Source: Candidatus Gastranaerophilales bacterium
GTDB lineage: Bacteria; Cyanobacteriota; Vampirovibrionia; Gastranaerophilales; Gastranaerophilaceae
Assembly: GCA_944326015.1 (NCBI GenBank)
Contig: CALVCJ010000011.1
Location: forward strand, 1 to 40,451
Length of the DNA stretch: 40,451 nt
Direction: 5' to 3'
The translations under genes were made by a program, and so were the position numbers. The notes beneath the pieces were generated by a model that saw nothing but the letters and a program-made list of their open reading frames with translations, made no database searches and had not been told where the DNA came from. The stretch's first letter is position 1. The number at the start of each line of letters is the position of its first letter. Below are positions 15,041-37,364 of this stretch, in pieces.

Positions 15041-15713
15041 GTATATACTGCAGATTCCTGTTTGCGAAGTTGAAAAAAATTTTAATACTGACTGTGATAT
15101 TTTAGGCATAAAGTTTACCATCGAGAATTGGGAAAATGAATTAGCGGCTTTTAAAAATCTTCTTCAGAAAATCAAAAAGCCGCTCATGCTCAGAGGGTGC
15201 GGTGAAGATTCAATTGATATGACGCTTCTGTCTCAAGTTATGGATATCATTGACAGGGAATGCATAATAGGTATTGCTAACGAAAATAATTACAAAAGTA
15301 TTGTACCTGCAGTGATAAAAGGCAGACACAAACTGATTATCCGTACCCCGATTGATATTAACCTTGCAAAAGAAATGAATATTTTAACATCAGATATGGG
15401 ACTGGGGTTAGATAAAATATTAATTGATACGGATATCGGAGGACTAGGATACGGTTTTGAATACGGCTACAGTATAATGGAAAAAATTAAACTTGAAGGA
15501 ACTTGCTCTGATAATAAACTGGGCGACAAATATCTGAATATGCCTTTAATTTCTTTTGCACCGGAAGAAACAGCCAAAACCAAAGAAGCAAAAGATGAAA
15601 ATCTCGCTTTATACCTTGAAATTGCTTCTGCTGCGGGAGTACTGGCCGCAGGAGCCGATTACATAGTAATGACAAAACAGCAGGCTGTAAATGTAATGAA
15701 AGGATTGGTATGA
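15024..15713 (+). CDS. Corrinoid iron-sulfur protein small-subunit homologue (AcsD/CdhD-like)
   Basis: A 229-residue protein related to the TIM-barrel subunit of the corrinoid iron-sulfur protein, which carries methyl groups on cobalamin in the acetyl-CoA (Wood-Ljungdahl) pathway. Family motifs include [19 protein letters not shown], then [20 protein letters not shown] and a C-terminal [14 protein letters not shown] block. It is clearly shorter than typical AcsD/CdhD proteins (roughly 300 or more residues), lacking much of the N-terminal part. The GTG start overlaps the end of ftsH by 17 nt, and its stop overlaps the next ATG (ATGA). No CO dehydrogenase or acetyl-CoA synthase gene is in the window. 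A role in methyl transfer is inferred. Confidence 0.75.
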
Positions 15714-16840
15714 CAGAACTTTCGGGATTGCAAATTTTTAAATATCTTCCGGCAGCCAAAAAAGCTGAACATACCAATTGCAAGATGTGCGGCTGTCCGA
15801 CATGTATGGCTTTTGCGCTAAAACTTGCAAAACACAATATTGATATCGAAAACTGCCCTTATGTGTCTGACGAATTAAAAAAAATTTGTGAACAAAATTC
15901 AAAAGAACCCCAAAAAACAGTTGATATAAACGGAGTTAAAATCGGCGGAGAAAATGTTTTATACAGGCACGAAAAAACTTTTATCAACAAAACCGCTATT
16001 GCGGTCATAATTGATTTATCCGAACACGATTGGAAAGAAAAATTTGAACAGGTAAAAAATTTTGAAATTACCAGAGTAAACGAACATTTAAAAATTGATT
16101 TAATTATTACTAAAAACGGTAGTCTGCCGGACTGTATAACTTACGAAGATTATAAAAAACTCCCAATCAAAGAAATAGTTAATGAAAAATTTTCAAAAAC
16201 ATCAAAAGAACTTATTGATACACGCAAAAAAGCCGTTTTAGAAAAAGATGAAAACTATTCATCTCCTGTCTGCGTTTATTTTAAACACACCGGAGATTTA
16301 AACCAGCTCTGCGCCGAAGCATCTTATTATATTTGTAAATACGCTAATATGCTTGTTTTTGAAGATTTTGATCCGTATTTGATAACAGCACTTATGACTT
16401 TAAGACAAAACATTTTCACAGATCCGCAGAAACCTCTGCAGGTAGAACCTAAAATTTATGAATTTAACAATCCCGATGAAAATTCGCTCATATTTATGAC
16501 AACAAATTTTGCACTTACATTCTTTGCGGTCGCAAATGAGCTCGAAGGCCTGCCTGTCCCGTCATACCTAATCGTAACTCCGGCAGAAGGCATGAGCGTT
16601 TTAACTGCATGGTCAGCAGAAAAATTCACGGCAAAAATGGTTGCAAAAACTTTAAAAAAATTCGACTTTGCAAATAAAGTCAAAAATAGAAAAATAATTA
16701 TCCCCGGACTTTTAGCCCACATGAAAGACGAACTTCAGGAAGAAGTTAAAGACTTTGAAATAATTGTCGGCACGGTAGACGCCTTTGCAATCGGCGATTT
16801 TGTAAAAAATTTAAAAATTCGGCATCAGCAGTCAGCCTAA
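15710..16840 (+). CDS. Corrinoid iron-sulfur protein large-subunit homologue (AcsC/CdhE-like)
   Basis: A 376-residue partner of the preceding gene. Residues 1-55 are the 4Fe-4S domain with Cys24-x2-Cys27-x4-Cys32-x16-Cys49, the spacing of AcsC/CdhE. The middle is a reduced barrel. The C-terminal 120 residues match the cobalamin-contact domain well (TTNFALTFFAVANELE, VPSYLIVTPAEGMSVLTAWS, KIIIPGLLAHMKDELQEE). The protein is shorter than usual (about 440 residues). Translational coupling with the AcsD-like gene (ATGA) supports a heterodimer. It may serve methionine or acetyl-CoA methyl transfer, or a repurposed role. Its stop shares bases with the stop of the convergent HTH gene. Confidence 0.8.
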   Translation: MTELSGLQIFKYLPAAKKAEHTNCKMCGCPTCMAFALKLAKHNIDIENCPYVSDELKKICEQNSKEPQKTVDINGVKIGGENVLYRHEKTFINKTAIAVIIDLSEHDWKEKFEQVKNFEITRVNEHLKIDLIITKNGSLPDCITYEDYKKLPIKEIVNEKFSKTSKELIDTRKKAVLEKDENYSSPVCVYFKHTGDLNQLCAEASYYICKYANMLVFEDFDPYLITALMTLRQNIFTDPQKPLQVEPKIYEFNNPDENSLIFMTTNFALTFFAVANELEGLPVPSYLIVTPAEGMSVLTAWSAEKFTAKMVAKTLKKFDFANKVKNRKIIIPGLLAHMKDELQEEVKDFEIIVGTVDAFAIGDFVKNLKIRHQQSA

Positions 16841-19241: not shown

Positions 19242-19883
19242 CTAATTATAGCTTGTAACCAGTCCCTGAACAATTAAAGCCCAGCCATCTACCGCAATAA
19301 ATATCAAAAGCTTAAACGGCAGTGATATAATAGTCGGTGACAGCATAAACATACCTAAAGCAAGCAATATATTTGCTACAACAAGGTCTAACACAATGAA
19401 CGGAACAAATATGATAAATCCGATTTCAAATGATGTTTTAAGTTCACTGATTATAAATGCCGGCGCAACCTGCCACACTGTTATTTCATCAGGACTTTTT
19501 GGCGGTGCTCCTTTTGAAGCTTCTATAAAAAATGCCAGATCACTTTCTCTCGTCTGTTTCATCATAAACTCTTTCAATGGCTTTGAGCCCTCATTTATTG
19601 CCTCGACAATATTTTGATTTTTATGATACGGAACTGCTCCCATTTCATACATTTTTTGAAAAGTTCCGCCCATTGTATAAAACGTCAAAATCATAGCAAG
19701 ACCAATTATAACAATAGATGGCGGAACCTGCTGAGTACCCATTGCTGTTTTCAACATTGAAAACACTATAACAAATCTCAAAAAACTTGTCATGCAGCAA
19801 AACACCAATGGCAGTAGTGAAAATACCGTCATTAATATAAGCATTTGTAACACAGGGTTCATATCTTTTATTATTGTATCCAT
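19242..19883 (-). CDS. fliP: Flagellar/type III export apparatus protein FliP
   Basis: Core export-gate subunit of 213 residues. Signature regions are FLRFVIVFSMLKTAMGTQQ with VPPSIVIIGLAMILTFYTMG, and the C-terminal AFIISELKTSFEIGFIIFVP followed by DLVVANILLALGMFMLSPTI. It begins directly at the first membrane helix without the cleavable signal peptide of enteric FliP, as in SctR-type and many other FliP proteins. The ATG has GAGG upstream. It lies 10 nt after fliO and upstream of fliQ. Confidence 0.95.
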   Translation of the reverse strand: MDTIIKDMNPVLQMLILMTVFSLLPLVFCCMTSFLRFVIVFSMLKTAMGTQQVPPSIVIIGLAMILTFYTMGGTFQKMYEMGAVPYHKNQNIVEAINEGSKPLKEFMMKQTRESDLAFFIEASKGAPPKSPDEITVWQVAPAFIISELKTSFEIGFIIFVPFIVLDLVVANILLALGMFMLSPTIISLPFKLLIFIAVDGWALIVQGLVTSYN

Positions 19884-19893
19884 ATTTGTGCCT

Positions 19894-20292
19894 CTAAATA
19901 TTATTTATTATGTTTTTAAAAACCTTTTTCTGACTTGCGCGCCCGTTTTGTGAAAAATTTACTATTGTAGGAAGATCATCTACACTGCAGGTACTTTTTA
20001 TCTTTTCTTTTTCAATCATGCCTGGCCTATTACATTTATCAACATTTCCAGCATCAAGTTTTGCAATAAGCGACGTCCTTCCAACATCCGAGGCTACAAG
20101 AAAGCGCTCTGCACCAGCTTTTATTACATAAAGATTTTTACGGGGGGCAAGATTTATACAATCCTCAACTTTTAAAAACTTTGAACGTGAACCGCTGCTG
20201 AAAGAAAATTTGTTATATACAATAACTGCCAGAAAAATAACTCCGACCATAGCTGCCGTATAAACTATAAAATTTATCAGATAACCTCCCAT
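19894..20292 (-). CDS. fliO: FliO-like export apparatus protein
   Basis: A 132-residue protein with one N-terminal membrane helix (about 4-25), then a basic stretch and a small domain with LKVEDCINLAPRKNLYVIKA and RFLVASDVGRTSLIAKLD, the usual FliO pattern of a beta-rich cytoplasmic domain. Its position between the SpoA protein and fliP is the canonical fliN-fliO-fliP order. FliO is a flagellar chaperone of FliP assembly and is normally absent from virulence-type secretion systems, so it argues for flagellar ancestry. AGGAGG precedes the ATG. Confidence 0.8.
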   Translation of the reverse strand: MGGYLINFIVYTAAMVGVIFLAVIVYNKFSFSSGSRSKFLKVEDCINLAPRKNLYVIKAGAERFLVASDVGRTSLIAKLDAGNVDKCNRPGMIEKEKIKSTCSVDDLPTIVNFSQNGRASQKKVFKNIINNI

Positions 20293-20312
20293 TATACCTC
20301 CTAAAAAAACGG

Positions 20313-21494
20313 TTATATATCCTCGTCTTCCAATTCAAAATCACTGTAATCAAATTCATCTTCTTCATCAGTCGTCTGCTCTTGTACAGGCTGTTGTTGT
20401 ACGGTAGAAGTTTCATCCTCATCGGTCTCTTCTTGGGCTGGAATTTCGACCTGAACATTATCAGCAGAAACTTGTGCTGCTGGTGTTTTTGCAATAACCT
20501 CTTCAATTTTTACACCATAACGATCATTTACGATTACAAGTTCACCGCGTGCAATTGGTTTATCCTCAACACTCAGTGTAACTTTATTATCATAAATCGA
20601 TGTTAAATCAACAACCAAACCTTCTTCTATATTTTTTAATTCTCCCAGGGTTATTTTCACAGTATCAAACTGAGCATTCATCTCAACTTCTATACTATCC
20701 CAAAGGTTAGTATTTTCATCTGTCATATCTTCTCCTCCATCGTTTTCTACGGGCAGCACAAGTCCGGGATTCGGGTTTAAATTTATATCCTTTTTGTGTT
20801 CTCGAAATTTTAAAACCATACGCCTGATATCACTGTTATCAAAAACCACTATATCATCTGTTTCAATATTTTTTATGTCAATAAGTTTAAAACGGGTTGA
20901 ACCGATTTCAACTGCAGCTTCAATTATGCTCGACGAAAAATCCGTATAATTAAATTTGTCACCTTTAGATGTAACAATTTCTGGACTTAAAAGTTCTTGG
21001 GGCAAAGTTATTATAAATTTTGAGGCAGTGTTTGAGTCAATGTCTTTCAACAAAAATGTCAGATGTATAACATCAAAATTTGTACGCTTCAAAGCAGGTG
21101 GGGCAGGGATTAAATATCTTGAAAGCGCATTATACATATAATCATTAAACGAAGTGATTATTTTTGCTTCCAAATCGGTAAGCTTGTTTAAATTAAATTT
21201 TGTTCCTGATTTACCAAGAATCTTATCCAATAAAATTCCAACAGCCTTTTCCGACGTCCTGAAAAACATATCATGAAGTTTATCAATACGAATTTTGGTT
21301 ACAAAATAAGAATCTTTATCCATTAAAGTGTTAATATTTTTACTTATGCCGGCAAGAACAAATTTGAAACCCGGCAGAAAAAATTCATCAGAAGCAGACT
21401 GAACTGCAGGCGGAAAAGCATTACTAAACCAATTGTATTGCGCATACAATTCTTTATAATCCGTTGAATTGATATTTGTGTTTCCCGTATTCAA
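20313..21494 (-). CDS. Double SpoA-domain C-ring-like protein (FliM/FliN or SctQ type)
   Basis: A 393-residue protein. The N-terminal 190 residues resemble a degenerate CheC/FliM-middle type domain (IDKLHDMFFRTSEKAVGILL, TFLLKDIDSNTASKFIITLP). A first SpoA-like domain follows (about 195-245), then a linker, and a second, better SpoA domain (about 275-345: VEMNAQFDTVKITLGELKNI, then GLVVDLTSIYDNKVTLSVED and IARGELVIVNDRYGVKIEEV). The last 50 residues are very acidic and Gln/Glu-rich. Two SpoA domains on one chain are typical of SctQ or of a FliM-FliN fusion. The start is TTG 21494 with AAGGGA upstream. It is first in the export-gene run, divergent from hemW. Confidence 0.78.
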   Translation of the reverse strand: MNTGNTNINSTDYKELYAQYNWFSNAFPPAVQSASDEFFLPGFKFVLAGISKNINTLMDKDSYFVTKIRIDKLHDMFFRTSEKAVGILLDKILGKSGTKFNLNKLTDLEAKIITSFNDYMYNALSRYLIPAPPALKRTNFDVIHLTFLLKDIDSNTASKFIITLPQELLSPEIVTSKGDKFNYTDFSSSIIEAAVEIGSTRFKLIDIKNIETDDIVVFDNSDIRRMVLKFREHKKDINLNPNPGLVLPVENDGGEDMTDENTNLWDSIEVEMNAQFDTVKITLGELKNIEEGLVVDLTSIYDNKVTLSVEDKPIARGELVIVNDRYGVKIEEVIAKTPAAQVSADNVQVEIPAQEETDEDETSTVQQQPVQEQTTDEEDEFDYSDFELEDEDI

Positions 21495-23310: not shown

Positions 23311-23495
23311 GGAAAAACCTCCTTTTTATCTACACACTTATAAATTTCAATTTCACAATAAATAAAAAACGACTGACAAATTAATTTTGACTAAAAAATA
23401 ATAGTTTTTCAATAATTGTAACAAAAATTTACATAAAAATTGGAATATTTTTTTTTTGAGTGTCATCTTGTTATATAGAAATAAGGAGAAAAAGC
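23311..23495. other. Divergent intergenic region
   Basis: AT-rich gap between the membrane orphan and the TonB-like gene. It contains both ribosome binding sites (AAAGGAGG on the minus strand, AAGGAG on the plus strand). I see no confident promoter hexamers and no repeat. Confidence 0.5.
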
Positions 23496-26400
23496 ATGGG
23501 TACGGAACAAGAAACTTTAATTTATATAGAGAATCAGGATAAACTTGATGCAAGTGCAGCCGCAAATGCATTCGCACATAAAGACGTCAGAAACAGAGCA
23601 TATATTAATACCTTAGGTGCTGAGCTAGCACTAAAATATCTTGCATCAGAAAATATTGATGTTTCTGATATTTATAATATACATTCCATAAAAAAAGTTC
23701 TTGAAGAACTTGATATTTCAGATATCATGCTGCCGAACATACATATAGACGTAAGAGTTGTATTTGACGAAAATGTTATTTTTATCCCCAAATCACATTT
23801 TCAATATAATATTGTTCCAGATATTTACCTAGTATTTTATCTTTCAAAAGATTTTTCATATGTGAAATTCCTCGGTTTCTTTGAACCAAAACTTATAAAT
23901 AAAAATAATGCCAATAATGAATACTACTTTATTGAAAAAGAAAAACTTAGTTCTGCACAGGATTTGAAAAAATATATAGACGCACATAAAGGCAATACAA
24001 AAGAAACACTTTCACAAGAAGATTTAGTAAATTCCGAACGTATTATAATTGCAATGGCAGACAATGATATATCAGAAGATGACAAAAGATATTTAATTAA
24101 ACAATTAACAAAAAGTGCCGCTTTAAGAGACAAATTTATCGAATATGAAAACTTTGAAACTCTTTCATATAAGGCGATGACAGATCCGAATATAAACAGA
24201 AAAACACCTGAAGATAAAAATTCAGCAGCCTTATCTGCGCCTGCTTTTGATGTACTTGAAAGTCTTAACAGCACTGATTCGGTTTTGGACGAAACTCCGG
24301 TTACACAAGACCAACTGCCATCACAAATTGAGGAATCAGAAAATTTAAATAACCCAGCGCTGGAAACCATTGACGCAACTACAGATGAACCAATGGAACA
24401 AACAGCTGTAAACACACCGGATAATAACTCTACTTTTGATATTGAATCATTAATACCGGATACCACAAACGAAATAAATGATACAACACCGAATATAGCT
24501 GATCTGACTGTCCAAAATACAGTTGAAACTGGTGAAAATGCAGAAAATGAAATTCAAAATAAAGCTGAAGAAATTGATTCATCTCTTGATTTTATAAATT
24601 CAGGTCTAGAATTTGTCGATAACATGTTCACAGAAAATACCGGAGAAACTGAGCATGAACTATCAGACAATCTTGCATTTCAAGAAAAAAATATCAATGA
24701 GGAAACAATATCCCTCCAAAATATAAATTTACCCGAAGTTCAAGAAAATACGGATTACATTGATTCTATAGATAATAAAATATCTTTTGAAGATATTAAA
24801 ATCAACATAGAAGAACCAAAACCAATTGATGAACCGGCTCCTGTAGACTTTGCACAAGACGCCTTGTCACTGGATAATGTAGATACATCAAATCTTGAAA
24901 ATCAGATTCCAATGGATAATTATAATGAAGAAACAATCTCGTTTGACGATATAGATACATCCAGTACATTAGAAGAACTTGATTTTGACAAAAATGAAAT
25001 TGAGAACACTATTTCATTTGATGATATTGATATTCAGGAAGAAAAAGCTGAAACTCCGTTACAAAAACAAAATGATTATCAAGAAGAAACAATTTCGTTT
25101 GATGATATAAATGTATCAGCAGATTCAATTGATAAAAACAGCGATATTGACGATTTTATGGATGATGTCATGTCATTTGATGAGGATCCGGTAGTTGAAC
25201 CCGAAGAATTACAAGCTCCCAAATTCGGTAATAATACCTGTAACGAATTATCCGCGACGCAAAACGAACCTTTGGATATGGAAGAAATTAATTCAGATAC
25301 AACACCAAATATTGACCCGCTTAATGATGAAATAAATGAACCAGATATTTCTGAGCTCGCCGAATTGCCACAAAACAGCGCACAAAATCAGGAAATTGAA
25401 TCGGAAATACAACCTGAAATAATTGAAGATGTACCACAAGAAACAGAAAAAACAGAAGGTTTCGGAAAAAATCTTCTTGAAAATTTATCCTCAGACAATA
25501 TGGATGACATTTCAATAGAAAGCCTCGGGATTGATGATACAAATATTCCGGAAGGCGCAGATAATATATCCTCACACGAATTATTATCACAAATAGATGA
25601 TATCTTAAATTCCTCAGACATAAATGGAAATCCTCAAATAATTGAAAACCGCCAACCTCATGAAGATTCCCCCAAAAACATAGATACCACAGATAATTTA
25701 ATTCCTGAGATTATAGAACAACCAGATATACAAGAAGAAAATAAGATATCCGATATTGTTACTGATGAAAATGACATAGAAAAACTTATCAAAGATTCAA
25801 ATTCTGATAACGAACAAATATCCAACGATGAAATTCCAGATACATCAATTGATGAACTCTTAAACTTTGAAGATAATTCCATGCCGCTATCAGATAACAA
25901 CCACAAAGAAGAAGAAGATGATGATGATGATAAACTCGATGTGCTATTTAACGACACCGACACAACTTCAGATTCCGAACTCGACAGTTTAAATGAAGAA
26001 ATTAACAGTATCGACACTGATAATGAAAACTTTATGGAAGATACCAATTCTGAAAATGTTCCCCCAGCAGCGGCAGTTTATAACAAAACATCAAATAAAA
26101 AAATATTGATAGTTACCGCAGCTCTCGTAACAGTTATTGCCGCAGCCTCTGCAGTTGTGCTTTTAAAACCGAAAAATAACAATACATCAAATATCGTTGA
26201 ACCGATGGCCCCACAGCCCGCAGAAACAGAAGTTGCAATGAATCAGGGAACTCAAAATCCTCTAGAAGCACCAGATAACGTTCTGACAACAAATGCTCCG
26301 GATCTAAATGTAAATAATAAAACTCCGGAGTCAAAAACCATACAAAAACCTGCGCCGGCCAAAGAACTTAGTAACATAACCCCCAAACCAAAACCCAAAA

Positions 26401-26762
26401 CTTCATCAGGAGAAAGTTCTTACCTTAACGTGAACAGACTTGTATGGGATGTAACTGATAGTCTTTCTTACAGTGATAAAATGCAAACTTATTTGAGAAC
26501 GGCAGGAAAAAGTATTAAGCTATCATTATCAGCGGATCTTCTGCTTGCAACAGAATACGCTTACACAAATCAAGTTAAAGTAAATATTAAGTTAAGCAAT
26601 ACCGGAGCAATACAGGGTATAAATATAGCCTCCAGTAGCGGCTCAACACAAATTGATAACATTGTGTTACAATCTGTTAAAGATACGTTAAGCGTCGTAA
26701 AACCGCCTAGTGACGTGATTAAGACCCCTGATTTCAATTTGAGTCTTATCATATACTTTTAA
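23496..26762 (+). CDS. Large acidic single-pass protein with TonB-like C-terminal domain
   Basis: A 1088-residue protein. Residues 1-190 are a globular cytoplasmic domain I do not recognise. About 190-865 is a highly acidic, Asn/Asp/Glu-rich disordered region. Within it (nt 24,699-25,190) a motif of the form E-E-T-I-S-F-D-D-I recurs about seven times in exact or degenerate form. A membrane helix (about 868-892) is followed by a Pro/Lys-rich spacer (QKPAPAKELSNITPKPKPKT) and a TonB-type C-terminal domain of about 110 residues (VKVNIKLSNTGAIQGINIAS). The ATG at 23496 has AAGGAG upstream. It may link cytoplasmic partners to the periplasm; the motif array suggests multivalent binding. Confidence 0.75.
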   Translation: MGTEQETLIYIENQDKLDASAAANAFAHKDVRNRAYINTLGAELALKYLASENIDVSDIYNIHSIKKVLEELDISDIMLPNIHIDVRVVFDENVIFIPKSHFQYNIVPDIYLVFYLSKDFSYVKFLGFFEPKLINKNNANNEYYFIEKEKLSSAQDLKKYIDAHKGNTKETLSQEDLVNSERIIIAMADNDISEDDKRYLIKQLTKSAALRDKFIEYENFETLSYKAMTDPNINRKTPEDKNSAALSAPAFDVLESLNSTDSVLDETPVTQDQLPSQIEESENLNNPALETIDATTDEPMEQTAVNTPDNNSTFDIESLIPDTTNEINDTTPNIADLTVQNTVETGENAENEIQNKAEEIDSSLDFINSGLEFVDNMFTENTGETEHELSDNLAFQEKNINEETISLQNINLPEVQENTDYIDSIDNKISFEDIKINIEEPKPIDEPAPVDFAQDALSLDNVDTSNLENQIPMDNYNEETISFDDIDTSSTLEELDFDKNEIENTISFDDIDIQEEKAETPLQKQNDYQEETISFDDINVSADSIDKNSDIDDFMDDVMSFDEDPVVEPEELQAPKFGNNTCNELSATQNEPLDMEEINSDTTPNIDPLNDEINEPDISELAELPQNSAQNQEIESEIQPEIIEDVPQETEKTEGFGKNLLENLSSDNMDDISIESLGIDDTNIPEGADNISSHELLSQIDDILNSSDINGNPQIIENRQPHEDSPKNIDTTDNLIPEIIEQPDIQEENKISDIVTDENDIEKLIKDSNSDNEQISNDEIPDTSIDELLNFEDNSMPLSDNNHKEEEDDDDDKLDVLFNDTDTTSDSELDSLNEEINSIDTDNENFMEDTNSENVPPAAAVYNKTSNKKILIVTAALVTVIAAASAVVLLKPKNNNTSNIVEPMAPQPAETEVAMNQGTQNPLEAPDNVLTTNAPDLNVNNKTPESKTIQKPAPAKELSNITPKPKPKTSSGESSYLNVNRLVWDVTDSLSYSDKMQTYLRTAGKSIKLSLSADLLLATEYAYTNQVKVNIKLSNTGAIQGINIASSSGSTQIDNIVLQSVKDTLSVVKPPSDVIKTPDFNLSLIIYF

Positions 26763-26798: not shown

Positions 26799-27368
26799 GT
26801 GGAATTAGCTCAAGATAAAATAGATTTAATAGAAAAAATCATAAAAAGTGACAGAAAATTCGCTAACAACGAAGATTTATATGATGACTTTTTCAACGAA
26901 ACCTGCAAAAGATCTTTTTTAATTGTTAAAACTGTAAGTTCTGATGCAACTCTGGAAGCTTATTTGAAAAAAATAGCAACCACATCTATTATAAATGTTC
27001 TTAAAAGCGAAGGCAGATTAAGACGTACTAAAACCGGTTATATGTCATCAAGAGAACTTCCTCTTGAATCAGCAGTTCAAACAGATATCCCTGATTACTC
27101 AAAAATTATAATAACTTATGAACCAGTTGATATTCAGGATACACCGGAAGATTTAGCTGTAAAAAAAGAAATTTTACAAAAAATCGTTGATTTGATTTAC
27201 GAAATAGATGCAGGTACTCCGGATAAAAACTATTTGAAACTTTACGATTTGAGATATGAAAAAGGTATGACTCAAAAAGAAATCGCCGATGAATTAGGTA
27301 TATCCCAATCAGAGGTTTCCAAAAGATTATTCAGACTGATGGAACAAGTAAAACAAGCATTCAACTAG
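26799..27368 (+). CDS. Sigma-70-like (ECF-type) regulator
   Basis: A 189-residue protein. The C-terminal part (about 130-189) is a convincing sigma region 4: KLYDLRYEKGMTQKEIADEL, then GISQSEVSKRLFRLMEQ. The N-terminal 70 residues resemble a reduced region 2 (YDDFFNETCKRSFLIVKTVS, then LEAYLKKIATTSIINVLKSE). No region 3 or obvious anti-sigma gene is seen. The start is GTG at 26799 with AAGGA. It is 12 nt upstream of the zinc-ribbon ATPase gene and follows the TonB-like gene, so the three may be expressed together. It could instead be a DNA-binding regulator with a sigma-4 fold. Confidence 0.75.
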   Translation: MELAQDKIDLIEKIIKSDRKFANNEDLYDDFFNETCKRSFLIVKTVSSDATLEAYLKKIATTSIINVLKSEGRLRRTKTGYMSSRELPLESAVQTDIPDYSKIIITYEPVDIQDTPEDLAVKKEILQKIVDLIYEIDAGTPDKNYLKLYDLRYEKGMTQKEIADELGISQSEVSKRLFRLMEQVKQAFN

Positions 27369-27380
27369 GATTTTTGTATA

Positions 27381-30353
27381 ATGAAATGTCCGATATGCAA
27401 AAAGACTATTCCTGACAATACGCTTAAATGTCCTTATTGCAAAGCAAGAACCGGTTTAGTCTGTAAAAATTGCAACACAGTAAATACTATTTTTGATTTT
27501 AAATGCAAAAAATGCGGGCAGGAAATTTTAAAACTTTGCCCTAACTGTAAAAGTGTAAATTTTCCAAATGTAAAAAAATGCCGCAAATGCGGTTATTCTT
27601 TTTCTCTCCCTGATATTGAAGATAAAGATATTGAAAATATTAAACCCGAATATCCCGCAAACCTTATGGCCCAGCAGAGCGCAAAAAATATTTTAATGAA
27701 AGGACTTCTGTCACCTGAAAAAAAAATACTATCTCTGAGCGGAGAAAAAGGTATTGGTAAAACTGTTGTTTTGAAAGCTTTAATGCATGATTTAAGAATA
27801 GAAAATATCTCATGGCTTTACGGGAAATGTACTCAGATCACCCAGATTACTCCCGGAGGGGTCGTACAGGATATTTTACTGAATATTTTTAATCTTCCGA
27901 ATTTCTGTGTCAATAATTTACAGTTCAAAAAAGATGCATCAAAATTTTTCAAAAACGAATTTCCGGAACTTAATAACGATAATATTTTTGATTTAATTAA
28001 CTTCCTATATCCGGTTAAAGAAGGTACGTTTGAACAAATAGCCGCAGCAAAAACAAAAACTTTTGAAATGTTATACAAAATATTTGATAGTATAACATCA
28101 AGAAACAAATATGTTTTTGCAATTGATAATTTTGACTTTATAGATGGTTTTTCTTATGAATTTATAAGCAGATATATAAAAAGAAGTAACATCTGGGCGA
28201 ATTTAAAACTACTTCTTATATATAATGATCCAAAACCTGCCAAGGGATATTTTTATTTTCCCGAAATAAAAGAAGAAAATATATATTTGGACGTTGGAAT
28301 TGCTCCTCTTGAATTCAAGCAGATTTACACTCTTGTAGAACAAAAAACATCAAAAATTCAGGGATTCCCAGAGTTCAATATTAGCGAACTCCATGAAATT
28401 TATCAGATTAGCAAAGGCAACCCTTCTTATATAAACCATGCGCTGAATCTATGCTTTGATTGTCAGCTTTGCGGGCAGGAATTCGAAATTGCAACTAATT
28501 TTACAGGACTGCTTGAATTCAGACTTGCACTTCTAGCACATTTAAACCCTGTTGCCTATGATATACTTCTGGGATCAGCAATAATAGGTGATAAAATTAA
28601 CCTTAATCTTGTCAAAGAAATTTTTGAGGTCGATGATAATACGTTCAAAGATATCATGATTTACTTGAAAAAAATGGATTACATAACCCCGGTCAACGAA
28701 ATATACTGCGAATTCAGCTCGCTTCTTCTATGGGAAGCAATCCTTAAAACCGCAAAAAATGATACAAACTATAAAGCAATAAATAAAAAAATACAAAATC
28801 ACTTTGCAGGTTTCACACTGAATTCAATCTCTATCCTCGGAATTATCGCTCAAAATCTTAAACAGCCAGAACAGGCACTGGAAATCTGGACAAAAAATAC
28901 AAGACTTGCCGCCTATATAGGAGATTTAAACCTTTATGCAATTTCTCAGAAGCAGTCGCTGGCACTTATTAACGAATTTGACGAAACACAGACACTTAAA
29001 ATAAGATACAATATTTCTGAACGCCTGGGCAAACTACTTTCAAACTCAAACCCTGTGGAAGCAATTGAATACCTGCCTGATGCAATATCAAATGCACAGG
29101 CTGTCGGCGATACACCAAGAGAAATTGAATTGCTTGCATATCTTGCATCTTGCTGCCGTAAAACAGGAAATTATTTTGGAGAAGTTGAATGCGTAGATTC
29201 TGTTCTAAAAAAAGTTAAACCCGATGATGATCTTAATATAGCACTTTTAAAAACAACAAAACTGAAAGCGCTTTTAAATATCGGGAATTGCGGACAGATA
29301 ATAAATATGATTGATACTGAAATCATGCCGGTACTTGACAGGTTCTTTGAAAAAAAACAAAATAACACACATCCAATGGCAGCAATTTGTTATGAGACAT
29401 GGCTTAAAACCTATCTTGTATTTGCAAATGCTCTTGTTATGCAAGGGAATGACAGATCATTCGAAATTCTTACAATACTTTTTGACATTATAGAGAGAAA
29501 CCAAATTGAAGATAATCTGTTTATATGTAAATGCAAATTAACACTTGCATTTGCAAATACAATGAAAGGCAACTACAAAGCATCAGAACAAATGCTTGAA
29601 GAAGTGCTTAAATCCTACAGAGAAAATATTATGGACAATGAAACAATATTAAGATGGAACTTCATTAATCTCATAAATAACTTCTTTAGAAAAAAATATA
29701 CAGGAATACAGGAAGACCTATTTCAAATAGTAACTTTTGCAAATAACAACGGAGATAACTTTACTAAAAATATCCTGAAAACTTTATTGGGAAAATTATT
29801 TAAAGATAATAACAACACAAAACAGGCAATGGAAATATATAATGACCAGATTGCATATTTTGCAAAAGAAAAAATGGCACTAGGTGCACTTTTAACCTGG
29901 TTTTTGATTGCAGATGCAACCCTAATTACCGAAGGGCCGCAAGCTGCAATGGAAATAGCCGAACAGGCACTTGAAGTTGCTCAAAACCCGAAAATCGACA
30001 ATTATTTCTTCACTATTGTGCTAAAAATGGTAATTGCAAAATGCTGCATTACTATTTCTAATTTCGAAACAGCAAAAATGCATATTGAAAGCTCAATACT
30101 TCTTGCAAGACAATTTAATATGAAGGACATTCTATCAAGATTGTATATTTTATACGGCAAATATTTTCAAGAATTAGGATTGATAAAATCTCAACAGCAG
30201 ATTGAATACCTTAAAGGTGCAGAAAAAATGTATGAACAGGCTGAAGAACTTATTATGCAGACACAAAACAACTATGTCAACTCTGATCTTAAAAAAGCCA
30301 AAAATGTACTTTCATCTTTTTGTAAGCTTAACAATATAGAAATTCACGGATAA
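27381..30353 (+). CDS. Zinc-ribbon, STAND-like ATPase and helical-repeat protein
   Basis: A 990-residue cytosolic protein. Residues 1-75 contain three zinc ribbons built from CPxC and CKxC pairs (Cys3/6/16/19 and two further sets). About residues 95-400 form an AAA_16/STAND-type ATPase with Walker A GEKGIGKT (121-128) and a Walker-B-like YVFAIDNFDFI near 240. The remaining 580 residues are TPR-like alpha-helical repeats. The layout matches signal-sensing ATPases that often sit beside cyclases or kinases; no effector domain is attached here. The ATG at 27381 has AGGA upstream. Coupling to a sigma-like gene suggests a regulatory role. It ends 2 nt from the convergent pilin-like gene. Confidence 0.8.
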   Translation: MKCPICKKTIPDNTLKCPYCKARTGLVCKNCNTVNTIFDFKCKKCGQEILKLCPNCKSVNFPNVKKCRKCGYSFSLPDIEDKDIENIKPEYPANLMAQQSAKNILMKGLLSPEKKILSLSGEKGIGKTVVLKALMHDLRIENISWLYGKCTQITQITPGGVVQDILLNIFNLPNFCVNNLQFKKDASKFFKNEFPELNNDNIFDLINFLYPVKEGTFEQIAAAKTKTFEMLYKIFDSITSRNKYVFAIDNFDFIDGFSYEFISRYIKRSNIWANLKLLLIYNDPKPAKGYFYFPEIKEENIYLDVGIAPLEFKQIYTLVEQKTSKIQGFPEFNISELHEIYQISKGNPSYINHALNLCFDCQLCGQEFEIATNFTGLLEFRLALLAHLNPVAYDILLGSAIIGDKINLNLVKEIFEVDDNTFKDIMIYLKKMDYITPVNEIYCEFSSLLLWEAILKTAKNDTNYKAINKKIQNHFAGFTLNSISILGIIAQNLKQPEQALEIWTKNTRLAAYIGDLNLYAISQKQSLALINEFDETQTLKIRYNISERLGKLLSNSNPVEAIEYLPDAISNAQAVGDTPREIELLAYLASCCRKTGNYFGEVECVDSVLKKVKPDDDLNIALLKTTKLKALLNIGNCGQIINMIDTEIMPVLDRFFEKKQNNTHPMAAICYETWLKTYLVFANALVMQGNDRSFEILTILFDIIERNQIEDNLFICKCKLTLAFANTMKGNYKASEQMLEEVLKSYRENIMDNETILRWNFINLINNFFRKKYTGIQEDLFQIVTFANNNGDNFTKNILKTLLGKLFKDNNNTKQAMEIYNDQIAYFAKEKMALGALLTWFLIADATLITEGPQAAMEIAEQALEVAQNPKIDNYFFTIVLKMVIAKCCITISNFETAKMHIESSILLARQFNMKDILSRLYILYGKYFQELGLIKSQQQIEYLKGAEKMYEQAEELIMQTQNNYVNSDLKKAKNVLSSFCKLNNIEIHG

Positions 30354-32843: not shown

Positions 32844-33449
32844 TTAATTTATTAAATTTGCTTGAATTGCAAGCAGTACAGCCTGAGTTCTGTTTTCAAC
32901 GTTAAGCTTCTTAAATATGCTGTTCAAGTGTGATTTAACAGTAACCTCTTTCACAAACAATTTTTCCGCAATCCTTTTATTACTTTCCCCTTTAGCAGCC
33001 ATTTGTAACACTTCTTTTTCTTTCGGTGTCAAAAGCTCTAACGGTATATCACAGGTATGTTCTTTCCTCTCACGTCTAGAACGCCTCAAAACAGCTTCCA
33101 TCCTCGCAAGAAGGTTCGGTAATATAAAAGGTTTTACAATATAATCGTCAGCACCTGTTTTTAAGCCTGAAATCATTTTTTGATCTTCATTTACGGCAGT
33201 CAGCATAATCACAGGTAAATCACGTGTTTTCTCATTTAAACGTATAGCTTTCAGAGTTTCCCATCCATTCATATTAGGCATCATTACATCAAGGAGCACA
33301 ATATCAAAGCTACTGCCATTCACGGAAAGTTCCTTCAATGCCTGAACGCCGTCACAAGCCGTCTTCACATCGTACCCGTAAAAAGGCAAAGCATCTTTTA
33401 AATATTTGGAATTATCGTCAACTAGCAGTACATTTGTCAATTCTGACAT
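32844..33449 (-). CDS. Response regulator, REC plus LuxR-type HTH
   Basis: A 201-residue two-component regulator. Receiver domain residues 5-120 have the acidic pair Asp11/Asp12, phospho-acceptor Asp54 (DIVLLDVMMPNMNG), Thr in MLTAVN and Lys in YIVKPF. The LuxR/NarL HTH is at 137-195 (LTPKEKEVLQMAAKGESNKR, then VKSHLNSIFKKLNVENRTQA). The receiver has the KPF motif more typical of OmpR-type receivers than of NarL ones. It follows another NarL-type regulator by 11 nt. No histidine kinase is in the run. Confidence 0.93.
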   Translation of the reverse strand: MSELTNVLLVDDNSKYLKDALPFYGYDVKTACDGVQALKELSVNGSSFDIVLLDVMMPNMNGWETLKAIRLNEKTRDLPVIMLTAVNEDQKMISGLKTGADDYIVKPFILPNLLARMEAVLRRSRRERKEHTCDIPLELLTPKEKEVLQMAAKGESNKRIAEKLFVKEVTVKSHLNSIFKKLNVENRTQAVLLAIQANLIN

Positions 33450-33460
33450 TAATTTTATCC

Positions 33461-34108
33461 TTAAACTATTTTATTTTTCAATGCCTTCAATGCTGCCTGA
33501 AGCCTGTCATCAACTTCAAGTTTCTGTAAAATATTTGCCACATGGGCTTTTGTTGTATTTATACTTATAACAAGAATCTGAGCAATTTCCATATTACTGT
33601 ATCCTTCTGTCATAAGTTTCAAAATCTGTGCTTCACGTGATGTTAGGTCATAATCTTTCCGGTTATTGTCATTATCAAACGATGGGGAATTAGCGCTTGC
33701 CCTCAGTACAATATGGGCAATACTCGGATCGAACCAGGCTGCACCGTCAGCTACCGACTGAACAACTGAGATTAATCTTTTTGGATTAATTTCTTTTGAA
33801 CAATAAGCGTTTGCTCCGGCTTTAAGACTGTTTAGAACTTCTTTTTCATCATTATGAGACGTAAGAATGATTATTTTAACATCCTTATCAGAGGAACGAA
33901 TTTGCTTTGTAGCTTCAATTCCATTCATATTAGGAAGCCCGAGATCCATAATAATTATATCTATATTATTATTATTGAAAATCTGGATTGCTGTTTCAGC
34001 AGAATCGGCTTCATAAATGTTTTCAACATAATCAACACCCTCAAAAGTTGTTCTCAGGCCAAATCTTGTAAGTTCATGATCTTCTACTATCAGAATATTT
34101 TTTTTCAT
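33461..34108 (-). CDS. NarL/FixJ-type response regulator
   Basis: A 215-residue response regulator. The receiver spans 3-118 with Glu9/Asp10, phospho-acceptor Asp55 (DIIIMDLGLPNMNG), TSH and Lys in YCSKEI. The LuxR-type HTH spans about 150-207 (LTSREAQILKLMTEGYSNME, then TTKAHVANILQKLEVDDRLQ). Its ATG overlaps the stop of the TPR gene (ATGA), so the two are translationally coupled. GAGGA lies upstream. The cognate kinase is not in the window. Confidence 0.94.
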   Translation of the reverse strand: MKKNILIVEDHELTRFGLRTTFEGVDYVENIYEADSAETAIQIFNNNNIDIIIMDLGLPNMNGIEATKQIRSSDKDVKIIILTSHNDEKEVLNSLKAGANAYCSKEINPKRLISVVQSVADGAAWFDPSIAHIVLRASANSPSFDNDNNRKDYDLTSREAQILKLMTEGYSNMEIAQILVISINTTKAHVANILQKLEVDDRLQAALKALKNKIV

Positions 34109-35646
34109 ATCTTTAATTCCTCTTTTGCCGGTTCATAATCAGGATTTAAGTGCAGAGATTTTTTAAAATAATTTTGAGCATCCTGTTTCATCCCCTGATT
34201 TTTTGCTAACAGTCCTTGATAATAATAATATCTAAAATCATTTTCGTCAATATAGCCTGCAACTTCCAAATATTTTTTTGCTTTTTGAAAGTTTTGTCTA
34301 TCGATTTCAGCCCGCCCAAGCTCTAACCAGGCATCTTTATAATTAACATTTATTGCTATTGCTTTTTTCAAATACGGAATCTCTTTGGATCTGTCTTTGA
34401 GCGCAATTTTATAATAAGCTGTATAACAATCGTTATAAGCTTTTAATATACGTTCATAAATTTCATAAGCTTTTTTTTCTTTTTCTTGCCGCTCATATGT
34501 TTCTGCAATTTTAACTGAGCTGATCGATGAAAATTTATCATTTGATTCGGCATCTTTGTAATATTTTAAAGCTGCTTTATAATCTTTATTTCTATAGCTT
34601 AAATCACCTAATACAAGAAGTGCAACAGGATTATTTCTATCAAGTTTGTGTGCTTTTTCTGCAGTATCTTCAGCTTTGTCGTAATCTTGCATGTCAAAGT
34701 AAACACGTGACAAAACTGGATAAACGTCTCTGTTATGTTTTTTCTTATTTGTTAATGCACTCTGCAATGTGCGCATTGATTTTGCAAGTTCATTTTCATA
34801 GTAATAATAGTAGCCAAGGTGGTACATTTTCTCAGAATAATCTTTATTTGCTTTATATAATACATACTGTTCAAGTGATTTAACCTTACGGGTGAAGTCG
34901 ACAGAATAAAGTTGTTGTTGTTTTATATATTCAAGAATTTTTAAAGCATCTTTTGGTTTTTTACCCTGCGAAAGAATTTCCGCTTTTAGCTTCCGGTAAT
35001 TAAGATTTTGTGGATTCATTCCTATTGCTGTATCAATATATTTGCCCGCGCTTATTATATCGTTTGATTTTAAATAACCGAGAGCGGCTATATAATTTGC
35101 ATAATCAGAAGCCGACAAAAGGTCAGTATTTTTTACCAATTCAGAAGTAGCCTCTCTGCTCTGATCATTATAAATTATATTTGAAAAAACTTCTCCCAGA
35201 TAAATTTCATCATCAACATCAAGTTTTTTAGATGGGAAATAGTAAATTTTTATATCATCTATAAGAAGATTCGACAAAGTTTTATCGCTTATTTTGGAAG
35301 ACGAAAGGGCTGAAAGATTAAAAAATCCAATATCAGCCATATTTTCGGCCATTTTCATATAAGCATAATCATTACTTTGCATGGTTTCTATAAGAATTTT
35401 AAAGTCAGAATATGCTGATTTAACATTACTCTGCATAAATCTTTCAAATGCAATAACATACTGATTATGTATTGAATTATGCGTAAGTGTTGCTTTTTTA
35501 ACCGGTAAAGCTATTGTGTTTGCAGGCAATACCATAGGAGCAAATGGATTTGCAGGCTGAATTACATCAAATTCCCCTGCTGCTGATACAGAAGTCAATG
35601 TCAATGCAGATATTAGAAGTATTAATATAAGCTTTTGCATCAACAA
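34105..35646 (-). CDS. Exported TPR-repeat protein
   Basis: A protein of 511-513 residues. An N-terminal signal peptide (MQKLILILLISALTLTSVSA) is followed by a roughly 140-residue domain and then at least seven TPR-type repeats to the end (for example PVLSRVYFDMQDYDKAEDTA, LLVLGDLSYRNKDYKAALKY and FRYYYYQGLLAKNQGMKQDA). TPRs mediate protein-protein contacts, so this may be a periplasmic or outer-membrane-associated scaffold. The start is ambiguous: ATG 35640 lacks a good ribosome binding site, while a TTG at 35646 has GAGGG 9 nt upstream. It is 2 nt downstream of the HD-GYP gene. Confidence 0.85.
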   Translation of the reverse strand: MLMQKLILILLISALTLTSVSAAGEFDVIQPANPFAPMVLPANTIALPVKKATLTHNSIHNQYVIAFERFMQSNVKSAYSDFKILIETMQSNDYAYMKMAENMADIGFFNLSALSSSKISDKTLSNLLIDDIKIYYFPSKKLDVDDEIYLGEVFSNIIYNDQSREATSELVKNTDLLSASDYANYIAALGYLKSNDIISAGKYIDTAIGMNPQNLNYRKLKAEILSQGKKPKDALKILEYIKQQQLYSVDFTRKVKSLEQYVLYKANKDYSEKMYHLGYYYYYENELAKSMRTLQSALTNKKKHNRDVYPVLSRVYFDMQDYDKAEDTAEKAHKLDRNNPVALLVLGDLSYRNKDYKAALKYYKDAESNDKFSSISSVKIAETYERQEKEKKAYEIYERILKAYNDCYTAYYKIALKDRSKEIPYLKKAIAINVNYKDAWLELGRAEIDRQNFQKAKKYLEVAGYIDENDFRYYYYQGLLAKNQGMKQDAQNYFKKSLHLNPDYEPAKEELKI

Positions 35647-35648
35647 AT

Positions 35649-37364
35649 TTACAAACCCTCACTTTTATTTATATTCCCTGAATAATAAAAATTAAACAAT
35701 TCCACTATTCGTTTTTCTTGATCAGATGAATTTTCATTAACTGTAAAATCATAAATGTTCAAAAGATTATAGTGGCTTAAAGTCTCACTGTCTTCTACTT
35801 TAAAATAATGATGATTCTCGGTAAGAAAAACATGGACAATTTTATTCACGGGAATTTTCAAAAATGCATCAACCAGACTCCCGTCAAAATGTTTATTTTT
35901 ACCGCTCAAAAGAATATCTATTACATTTTTTATAGGCATTTTATCGCGGTAATGGCGTTTTGAGGTTATGGCGTCAAAAACATCTGCAACCGCAAGAATT
36001 CTTCCGCCGTAAGGAATATTTTCTCCGCTTAAATGCCTGTAATAACCGGTACCATCATATTTTTCATGATGTGTACAGGCAATCTCCGTTATCATTTTAA
36101 AATCTTCGGACATATGTATTTTTTCCAGAATATCATGCGTAATTTTAACATGTTCCTGAATATGCTTATACTCTTCCTCAGTAAGTTTTCCTTCTTTTTG
36201 AAGAACGGAATCTCTTATGCCTATTTTGCCTATATCATGCAGTATTGCAGCTTTTTCAACAAGTTCTTTAAATTTAGCGGCACAGCTAAGTTCATCTACA
36301 AGAAGCATTGCATAGAGTTTAACACGGCTTGAGTGACCTGCAGTAATTTTGTCTCTTGCATCTATTGAAGTTGCAAGGGTATCAATAAAACTTTCAAAAA
36401 GCGCTTTTTGTTCTTTATAAAGCTCTTTCTGCTGTTCAAAAAGCTGGGCATTTTCAAGAGCAATTGACGCACTACCGCCTATAGCTGCAAGCAAATCTTC
36501 ATCACCTTTTGTGAAAACACCACCGTTCTTATTCAAAACCTGAAAGGCGCCGATTATCTCTTTGTTGTTGTTCTTGATAGGCATACAAAGAATTGTTTTA
36601 GTTCTGTATCCTGTTTCCTTATCTATATCGGGATTAAATCTGGGATCATTATAAGCATCAGGAATATTCAACGGTTCACCGGTTTTAACAACATAACCGG
36701 CAAGTCCTTTATCTGCCGGAAATCTTATTTCTTGACTGTCCATACCGAGTGCTACCTTGCTCCAAAGCTCATGTTTTTCTGGATCAAGCAGAAAAACAGT
36801 ACATCTGTCAGCCTGTATTGCGACTTTTGTTTCCTCAGCTATAACACGCAATAGCACATCAATATCAGTTACCGCAGATATAGAGCGTCCTATTTTCACA
36901 AGCGAAACAAGAGGATCACTTTTTACAGAAATCGTAAATCCTGTTTTTTCAGTTATCTGCTTAATTCTTGACAAAACATAACCCATTACCGAGAGAATAT
37001 CTCCACTTAGCAAAGATATGTTTTTTGCATTTTCAAAATGGGTCAATGCTGTATCATCAAATCCTTCTCCAAAATAAACAGTACCTTTAGCAAATTCATT
37101 AATCAGTTTTGCTGTCCCGCTTTTTAAAAAATCTGCCATATAACAGGCATCATTTAAAAATCCTAGTGATTCCTGATAATTCACCTTATCAATCAGATAT
37201 TTTGTCATCCCTAGAAGACTCATACATATGGAAATTCCTTCAGTCACATTTTGAGCCGCATAAAAATTTCGCTTATCTTCAAAAAATTGCATAGCTCCTG
37301 AATAATCACCGCCATCCAACAGAACAAAACCTTCTTTTAAAATACTTGTATCACACTTAACCAT
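35649..37364 (-). CDS. GAF plus HD-GYP domain protein (c-di-GMP phosphodiesterase type)
   Basis: A 571-residue cytosolic protein. Residues 1-140 form TPR-like helices; about 160-310 form a GAF sensor domain (ADRCTVFLLDPEKHELWSKV, then ADKGLAGYVVKTGEPLNIPD). A short coiled coil leads to the HD-GYP domain, with HD at His376-Asp377 (HDIGKIG) and HHEKYDGTGY from His432. The signature reads GYY: the proline of GYP is Tyr442. Metal ligands appear present, so cyclic-di-GMP hydrolysis is plausible, but GYP variation can affect partner binding or activity. About 50 residues follow the domain. It is the first gene of the minus-strand signalling and pilin-like run. Confidence 0.9.
   Translation of the reverse strand: MVKCDTSILKEGFVLLDGGDYSGAMQFFEDKRNFYAAQNVTEGISICMSLLGMTKYLIDKVNYQESLGFLNDACYMADFLKSGTAKLINEFAKGTVYFGEGFDDTALTHFENAKNISLLSGDILSVMGYVLSRIKQITEKTGFTISVKSDPLVSLVKIGRSISAVTDIDVLLRVIAEETKVAIQADRCTVFLLDPEKHELWSKVALGMDSQEIRFPADKGLAGYVVKTGEPLNIPDAYNDPRFNPDIDKETGYRTKTILCMPIKNNNKEIIGAFQVLNKNGGVFTKGDEDLLAAIGGSASIALENAQLFEQQKELYKEQKALFESFIDTLATSIDARDKITAGHSSRVKLYAMLLVDELSCAAKFKELVEKAAILHDIGKIGIRDSVLQKEGKLTEEEYKHIQEHVKITHDILEKIHMSEDFKMITEIACTHHEKYDGTGYYRHLSGENIPYGGRILAVADVFDAITSKRHYRDKMPIKNVIDILLSGKNKHFDGSLVDAFLKIPVNKIVHVFLTENHHYFKVEDSETLSHYNLLNIYDFTVNENSSDQEKRIVELFNFYYSGNINKSEGL

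Follow-up and report, generated by a model that had tools for sequence, protein, structure and literature searches.

Organization of the locus

The window, a stretch of 40,451 nt from an assembly of Candidatus Gastranaerophilales bacterium (contig CALVCJ010000011.1), carries three consecutive genes on its forward strand. The first (23496..26762, +) encodes a protein of 1088 aa that combines a DUF1822 domain, an anti-sigma domain, an acidic linker, a membrane helix and a TolA/TonB-type domain. The second (26799..27368, +), starting 36 nt 3′ of the TonB-tailed gene, encodes an ECF sigma factor of 189 aa (TIGR02937, E 7.9e-21, residues 19-187), and the third (27381..30353, +) a STAND-like zinc-ribbon/AAA/TPR protein of 990 aa with matches to the Pfam profiles DZR, AAA_16 and TPR. 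Because an alternative GTG start of the first gene at 23460 lies inside a conserved promoter block, the ATG at 23496 is the likely start codon.

The translated reading frame presents, in this order, an N-terminal cytoplasmic domain, the acidic linker, one membrane helix, a Pro/Lys spacer and the TolA/TonB-type domain. The initial annotation had described such a multi-part protein of 1088 residues, which is borne out by the translation, profile matches and AlphaFold2 (AF2) models, and it was right to find so long a cytoplasmic part surprising in a TonB-like protein. The cytoplasmic domain that it left as unknown is identified by profiles and structure comparison as DUF1822 plus an anti-sigma domain.

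Elsewhere, the window contains a row of minus-strand genes for FliP, FliO and a FliN/SpaO-type C-ring protein (19242-21494) of flagellar or type III-type export. A gene for a CdhD-like protein (CO dehydrogenase/acetyl-CoA synthase delta-subunit) with an Fe-S domain lies downstream of FtsH at 15710-16840, here in a gut lineage. Two LuxR-type response regulators, a TPR protein and a GAF/HD-domain protein form a second signalling cluster on the minus strand (32844-37364).

Distribution and conservation of the operon

Of 191 genomes examined from the same family, 171 carry an orthologue of the TonB-tailed protein and 150 a relative of the sigma factor; the named relatives belong to Candidatus Gastranaerophilales or to other uncultured gut bacteria. 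For comparison we used the window locus and 40 further loci, i.e. 41 orthologues from 20 genera, and both the N-terminal and the C-terminal part were found in all 41. An ECF sigma gene adjoins the TonB-tailed gene in 39/41 loci. Outside genus g17 it lies downstream on the same strand with a gap of 0-86 nt in 34/36 loci, the exceptions being L077 and L078, and in g17 it follows a split gene pair in 5/5 loci. The zinc-ribbon/AAA/TPR gene comes after the sigma gene in 37/41 loci; the four loci lacking it include L074, where the contig ends in the sigma gene, and L079, which lies near a contig start.

In all five g17 genomes (L064-L068), two adjacent genes 27-33 nt apart replace the single gene, with the break inside the linker, so that one ORF encodes DUF1822 and the anti-sigma domain (298-327 aa) and the other the linker, membrane helix and TonB-type domain (635-679 aa). 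Because head and membrane part are separate genes in this genus, the covalent tether is not universal, and the arrangement suggests that the two parts can work as two proteins. The linker may therefore act through non-covalent contact besides tethering. L077 (g21) and L078 (g37), the loci without an adjacent sigma gene, have short non-acidic linkers and an intact zinc signature; they perhaps represent an ancestral form or a paralogue.

The cytoplasmic head combines DUF1822 with an anti-sigma domain

DUF1822 occupies residues 4-166 (23505..23993, +). The profile PF08852 matches at E 1.2e-8 and 34.9 bits (cut-off 25) over positions 2-156 of its 370 when residues 1-245 are scanned alone, and is not reported by a Pfam scan of the full-length protein; at E <= 0.5 it matches 39/41 orthologues. 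The AF2 model of the N-terminal part, built from the 41-sequence alignment, has a pLDDT of 90 and a pTM of 0.84. The initial annotation had proposed a structure comparison of this domain. VIA-align related residues 4-166 to PD-(D/E)XK-like proteins, namely a SPARDA subunit (Z 8.1), Hjc (Z 7.9) and DpnI (Z 7.1), values that count as middling at Z 7-9 by the tool's own note, and it also found the RsiW/MucA likeness described below; Foldseek returned no match for the N-terminal model at E <= 0.001, and we therefore rate the VIA-align matches as moderate. The catalytic (D/E)xK is replaced by I97-P98-K99, and D85 and K99 are nearly invariant among the orthologues. We read DUF1822 here as a probably catalytically degenerate domain, for which the PD-(D/E)XK fold is a moderate match.

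Directly behind DUF1822, residues 174-229 (24015..24182, +) form a predicted three-helix domain (AF2 helices 174-188, 194-206 and 208-229). A search of the PDB with the alignment profile matched RsiW (E 0.0081), and VIA-align placed residues 174-228 on RsiW with Z 7.2 and on MucA with Z 7.0 (54 residues, 2.2 Å). Judged by profile and model, this segment is an anti-sigma domain resembling those of RsiW and MucA. Its zinc ligands have been lost: the window protein has no match to zf-HC2 and lacks the Hx3Cx2C ligands, a signature kept in 3/41 orthologues (from g19, g21 and g37), and zf-HC2 exceeds the Pfam cut-off in orthologue L077. Together with the profile match to RsiW, these zinc features back the anti-sigma assignment independently of the structural alignments. 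According to PMC7406223, about half of the membrane anti-sigma factors of this class are likewise without zinc ligands. The same paper describes a fourth helix of class I domains that binds sigma-2 (PMC7406223); a separate fourth helix is absent from the 245-residue model and may fall in the linker. The domain is cytoplasmic and precedes the membrane helix, but lies behind about 170 residues of DUF1822. Because it is thus not at the extreme N-terminus, we regard it as a variant that would work like class I and not as a standard member.

A head of this composition might instead assist the sigma factor, as a chaperone or co-activator whose DUF1822 part delivers sigma to RNA polymerase or DNA. 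The PD-(D/E)XK-like, possibly nucleic-acid-related fold of DUF1822 would suit such a role, as would the cyanobacterial DUF1822 proteins beside sigma genes, which match the full profile; the resemblance of residues 174-229 to the inhibitors RsiW and MucA in both sequence and fold argues against it, and we consider a positive partner improbable.

The acidic linker is long, and its repeats are confined to two genera

By composition, residues 236-863 (24201..26084, +) are an acidic, disordered linker with 27% Asp+Glu and 4% Lys+Arg. The acidic disordered stretch of the initial annotation thus exists, at a length of about 630 rather than about 670 residues. The linker sequence evolves fast between genera; it is long and acidic in most orthologues although the repeats differ, and in g21 and g37 it is non-acidic and comprises 104 and 126 aa.

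The seven or so copies of a Ser-Phe-Asp-Asp motif noticed earlier are real and form an array at residues 404-566 (24705..25193, +), with the sites ISLQNI, ISFEDI, LSLDNV, three exact ISFDDI and MSFDED. A broad ISFDDI pattern has 6 matches, where shuffling of the linker leads one to expect 0.14, and its strict core has 4, with 0.06 expected. Conservation across orthologues, which had been put forward as the check on this motif, largely fails: at least four broad copies occur in 11/41 orthologues and 2/20 genera, g1 (the window's genus, 9/9) and its sister genus g22 (2/2), and in the other 18 genera an array is absent, no orthologue exceeding 3 copies. Because of this confinement, the array is not a defining feature of the protein.

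The most widely conserved element of the linker is [LIV]xxL[FY], which lies 22-65 residues ahead of the membrane in 33/41 linkers against 0.9 expected and is represented in the window protein by DDKLDVLFND (residues 811-820; 25926..25955, +). A linker motif scan also yielded the helical-looking, partly conserved ISSHELLSQIDDILNS (residues 691-706; 25566..25613, +), which reaches p<0.02 in 13/30 linkers outside g1 and g22, in 6/18 genera; the motif LLxxIDxLL is likewise found in 13 of these 30 linkers. Other candidates were dismissed: outside g1 and g22, FGKNLL is significant in g27 alone (2/30 linkers), single SFDDI-like sites occur in 6/30 linkers and a 12-residue LF profile in 8/30. A FliL profile match of alignment A2 (E 0.0061), which spans the membrane helix with the neighbouring part of the linker, was taken as compositional.

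These motifs bear on the suggestion of the initial annotation that the protein could be a multivalent docking scaffold working through the ISFDDI array, which would liken it to platforms for polarity or motility. The array is indeed above chance and present in 11/11 examined g1 and g22 orthologues, and the element before the membrane is conserved, but the other 18 genera keep the remainder of the protein and the operon without the array. For a GltJ-like motility platform, considered as a possible parallel, a literature search yielded nothing. We hold such a scaffold to be very unlikely; the linker could still have a docking role.

The TolA/TonB-type domain occurs in a genome without detectable receptor plugs

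The membrane helix (residues 870-890; 26103..26165, +), delimited by hydropathy, sequence and alignment A2, contains no His, the residue that has a role in the membrane helix of TonB. The periplasmic domain at residues 978-1088 (26427..26759, +) is of the TolA-III/TonB-CTD type. TonB_2 (PF13103) matches residues 1023-1073 with E 5.2e-6 and 26.9 bits (cut-off 22), and an AF2 model of residues 799-1088 is confident solely for 978-1088, at a pLDDT of about 96. VIA-align of this segment gave Z 9.2, 8.8 and 8.6 for TolA domain III and Z 9.1 for the TonB-CTD of H. pylori; Foldseek with the C-terminal model gave no match at E <= 0.001.

A true TonB- or TolA-type energy transducer or envelope tether, with a large regulatory cytoplasmic head and a sigma neighbourhood that reflects co-regulation only, would account for the TonB_2 match and the TolA/TonB fold. 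A search for the ExbB partner, as the initial annotation had advised, gave a mixed answer: ExbB is encoded in the genome, but the single copy adjoins a different TonB-type gene. The genome, which is 92.5% complete, has no match to the Plug domain of TonB-dependent receptors (PF07715) at E <= 1 and none to TolB_N as a partner. Because no Plug domain was found and the sole ExbB sits beside its own TonB, energy transduction to transporters appears unlikely from the gene content. The absence of His from the membrane helix also speaks against an energy transducer, which would moreover leave the anti-sigma domain unexplained, and we regard this reading as very unlikely.

The genome has 13 TonB_2 matches at E <= 1, of which 12, including the window protein, exceed the cut-off. 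These 12 lie on contigs C4, C7, C12, C24 and C31 of the genome (G000), several of them clustered, although a Plug domain is not detectable there.

A conserved ECF-type promoter precedes the operon

Upstream of the operon, conservation marks a putative ECF-type promoter, GGAATATTTTTTTTTTGAGTGTCATC (23442..23467, +), with the -35-like element GGAAT and the -10-like element TGTCATC. Among 99 distinct upstream regions, 80 have the pattern GGAAT-N14-TGT[ACG][AGT]TC, where mononucleotide shuffles give 0.000 expected, and 92 have a relaxed form, with 0.28 expected; these expectations overstate independence because the upstream regions are related by descent. In 15 genus representatives, positions that nothing in the pattern forces, ATWTTT following GGAAT and a TC close to the block's end, are nonetheless nearly invariant, while the middle of the spacer and the flanks vary. 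Further upstream, at 23385-23440, there is another conserved block (TTTTGAC..., TTTTCAATAATTGTTACAAAANTTTACA), which could be a housekeeping promoter or the site of a regulator.

Of 18 related genomes, 17 have a single T-rich copy of the promoter, located at the operon; the other exact matches are mostly random in appearance. In the window's genome, the exact form GGAAT-N13..15-TGTMATC was found at the operon and at one further site that is probably due to chance (control 1). With 3 mismatches allowed, 6 sites were found, and the control had 0. Three of the five sites besides the operon were inspected as possible further targets (on C12, C55 and C38; the remaining two are on C64 and C68) and were rejected: those on C12 and C55 are inside other ORFs, and the one on C38 precedes an unrelated ORF of 170 aa by about 0.5 kb. 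A promoter-like site in G182 (L254) was discarded as a second target as it is inside a minus-strand ORF. Because the site is at the operon and neither the exact nor the 3-mismatch search of the window's genome established a second target or a regulon beyond it, the pattern fits autoregulation.

A proposed self-regulated sigma switch

We conclude that the protein is most likely the transmembrane anti-sigma factor of a self-regulated ECF switch of Gastranaerophilales. It would then probably sense the envelope and control its own genes, and not drive nutrient uptake. The computations show the domain identities, the operon, the promoter conservation and the missing TonB receptor plug domains; that the protein binds sigma, which way it regulates, that it senses in the periplasm and how sigma is set free we infer. 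The anti-sigma domain behind DUF1822 would hold the neighbouring ECF sigma factor inactive at the membrane, with the acidic linker of about 630 residues tethering the head to the single inner-membrane helix and the periplasmic TolA/TonB-type domain reading the state of the envelope. On a signal, sigma would be released, by proteolysis or by conformational change, and, once free, it would start transcription of its own operon at the GGAAT/TGTMATC promoter. Firing of the operon would raise sigma, its brake and the zinc-ribbon/AAA/TPR protein together.

More tentatively, the protein may stand for a distinct trans-envelope class of anti-sigma factors that is near-universal in gut Gastranaerophilales. 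In this class, a TolA/TonB-type reader of the outer envelope would pass the signal through an acidic tether of 600 residues to a DUF1822 anti-sigma head, and the sigma factor under its control would have essentially a single promoter, that of its own operon. On this view, DUF1822 would represent, across Cyanobacteriota, a family of sigma regulators that use a degenerate nuclease fold. We put this wider proposal forward as possible, with more doubt than confidence. If our reading is true, a protein that annotation would name TonB acquires a function in an uncultured gut lineage, DUF1822 turns from a domain of unknown function into a likely sigma-regulator domain common with cyanobacteria, and an anti-sigma factor turns out to use a TolA/TonB-type domain as its outer end.

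Comparison with known systems

The protein shares with TonB and TolA the membrane helix, the Pro/Lys-rich spacer and the C-terminal fold, but differs from them in its huge cytoplasmic head and in a genome in which neither a receptor plug nor TolB_N was found. Cell-surface signalling of the FecR/HasS type also ties a trans-envelope anti-sigma factor to TonB-type biology, with FecR combining a periplasmic FecR domain with a TonB-dependent receptor. Here, in contrast, the anti-sigma factor itself bears the TolA/TonB-type fold, and a receptor plug was not found in the genome. In the parts of the literature that our searches covered, works joining an anti-sigma factor with a TonB domain concern FoxA, HasB and TonB transport, and we found no description there of a TonB-tailed anti-sigma factor; searches for sigma factors in Gastranaerophilales or anti-sigma factors in Melainabacteria returned nothing.

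The cyanobacterial sigma-like/DUF1822/CHAT clusters resemble our locus in that DUF1822 is encoded beside a sigma gene, and PMC8195603 notes an association of DUF1822 with ECF sigma factors. In several clusters, the DUF1822 gene lies directly 3′ of a sigma-like gene; the sigma profile marked 8 of 20 cyanobacterial DUF1822 loci, the neighbours outside L200 and L206 being judged by that profile alone. In L200 and L211, Pfam gave no match for the short genes upstream. Cyanobacterial DUF1822 proteins are stand-alone and cover the full profile of 370 positions, whereas only positions 2-156 are represented here, and the third gene encodes CHAT and periplasmic-binding-type domains in L200 and L206, the two clusters scanned, but a zinc-ribbon/AAA/TPR protein here.

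The class I systems RsiW, MucA and RseA share with our protein a three-helix cytoplasmic domain, one membrane helix, a periplasmic part and a paired ECF sigma gene. The present protein departs from them in having DUF1822 in front of the anti-sigma domain, about 630 acidic residues between that domain and the membrane, a periplasmic domain of the TolA/TonB type and a gene that lies upstream of that of its sigma factor.
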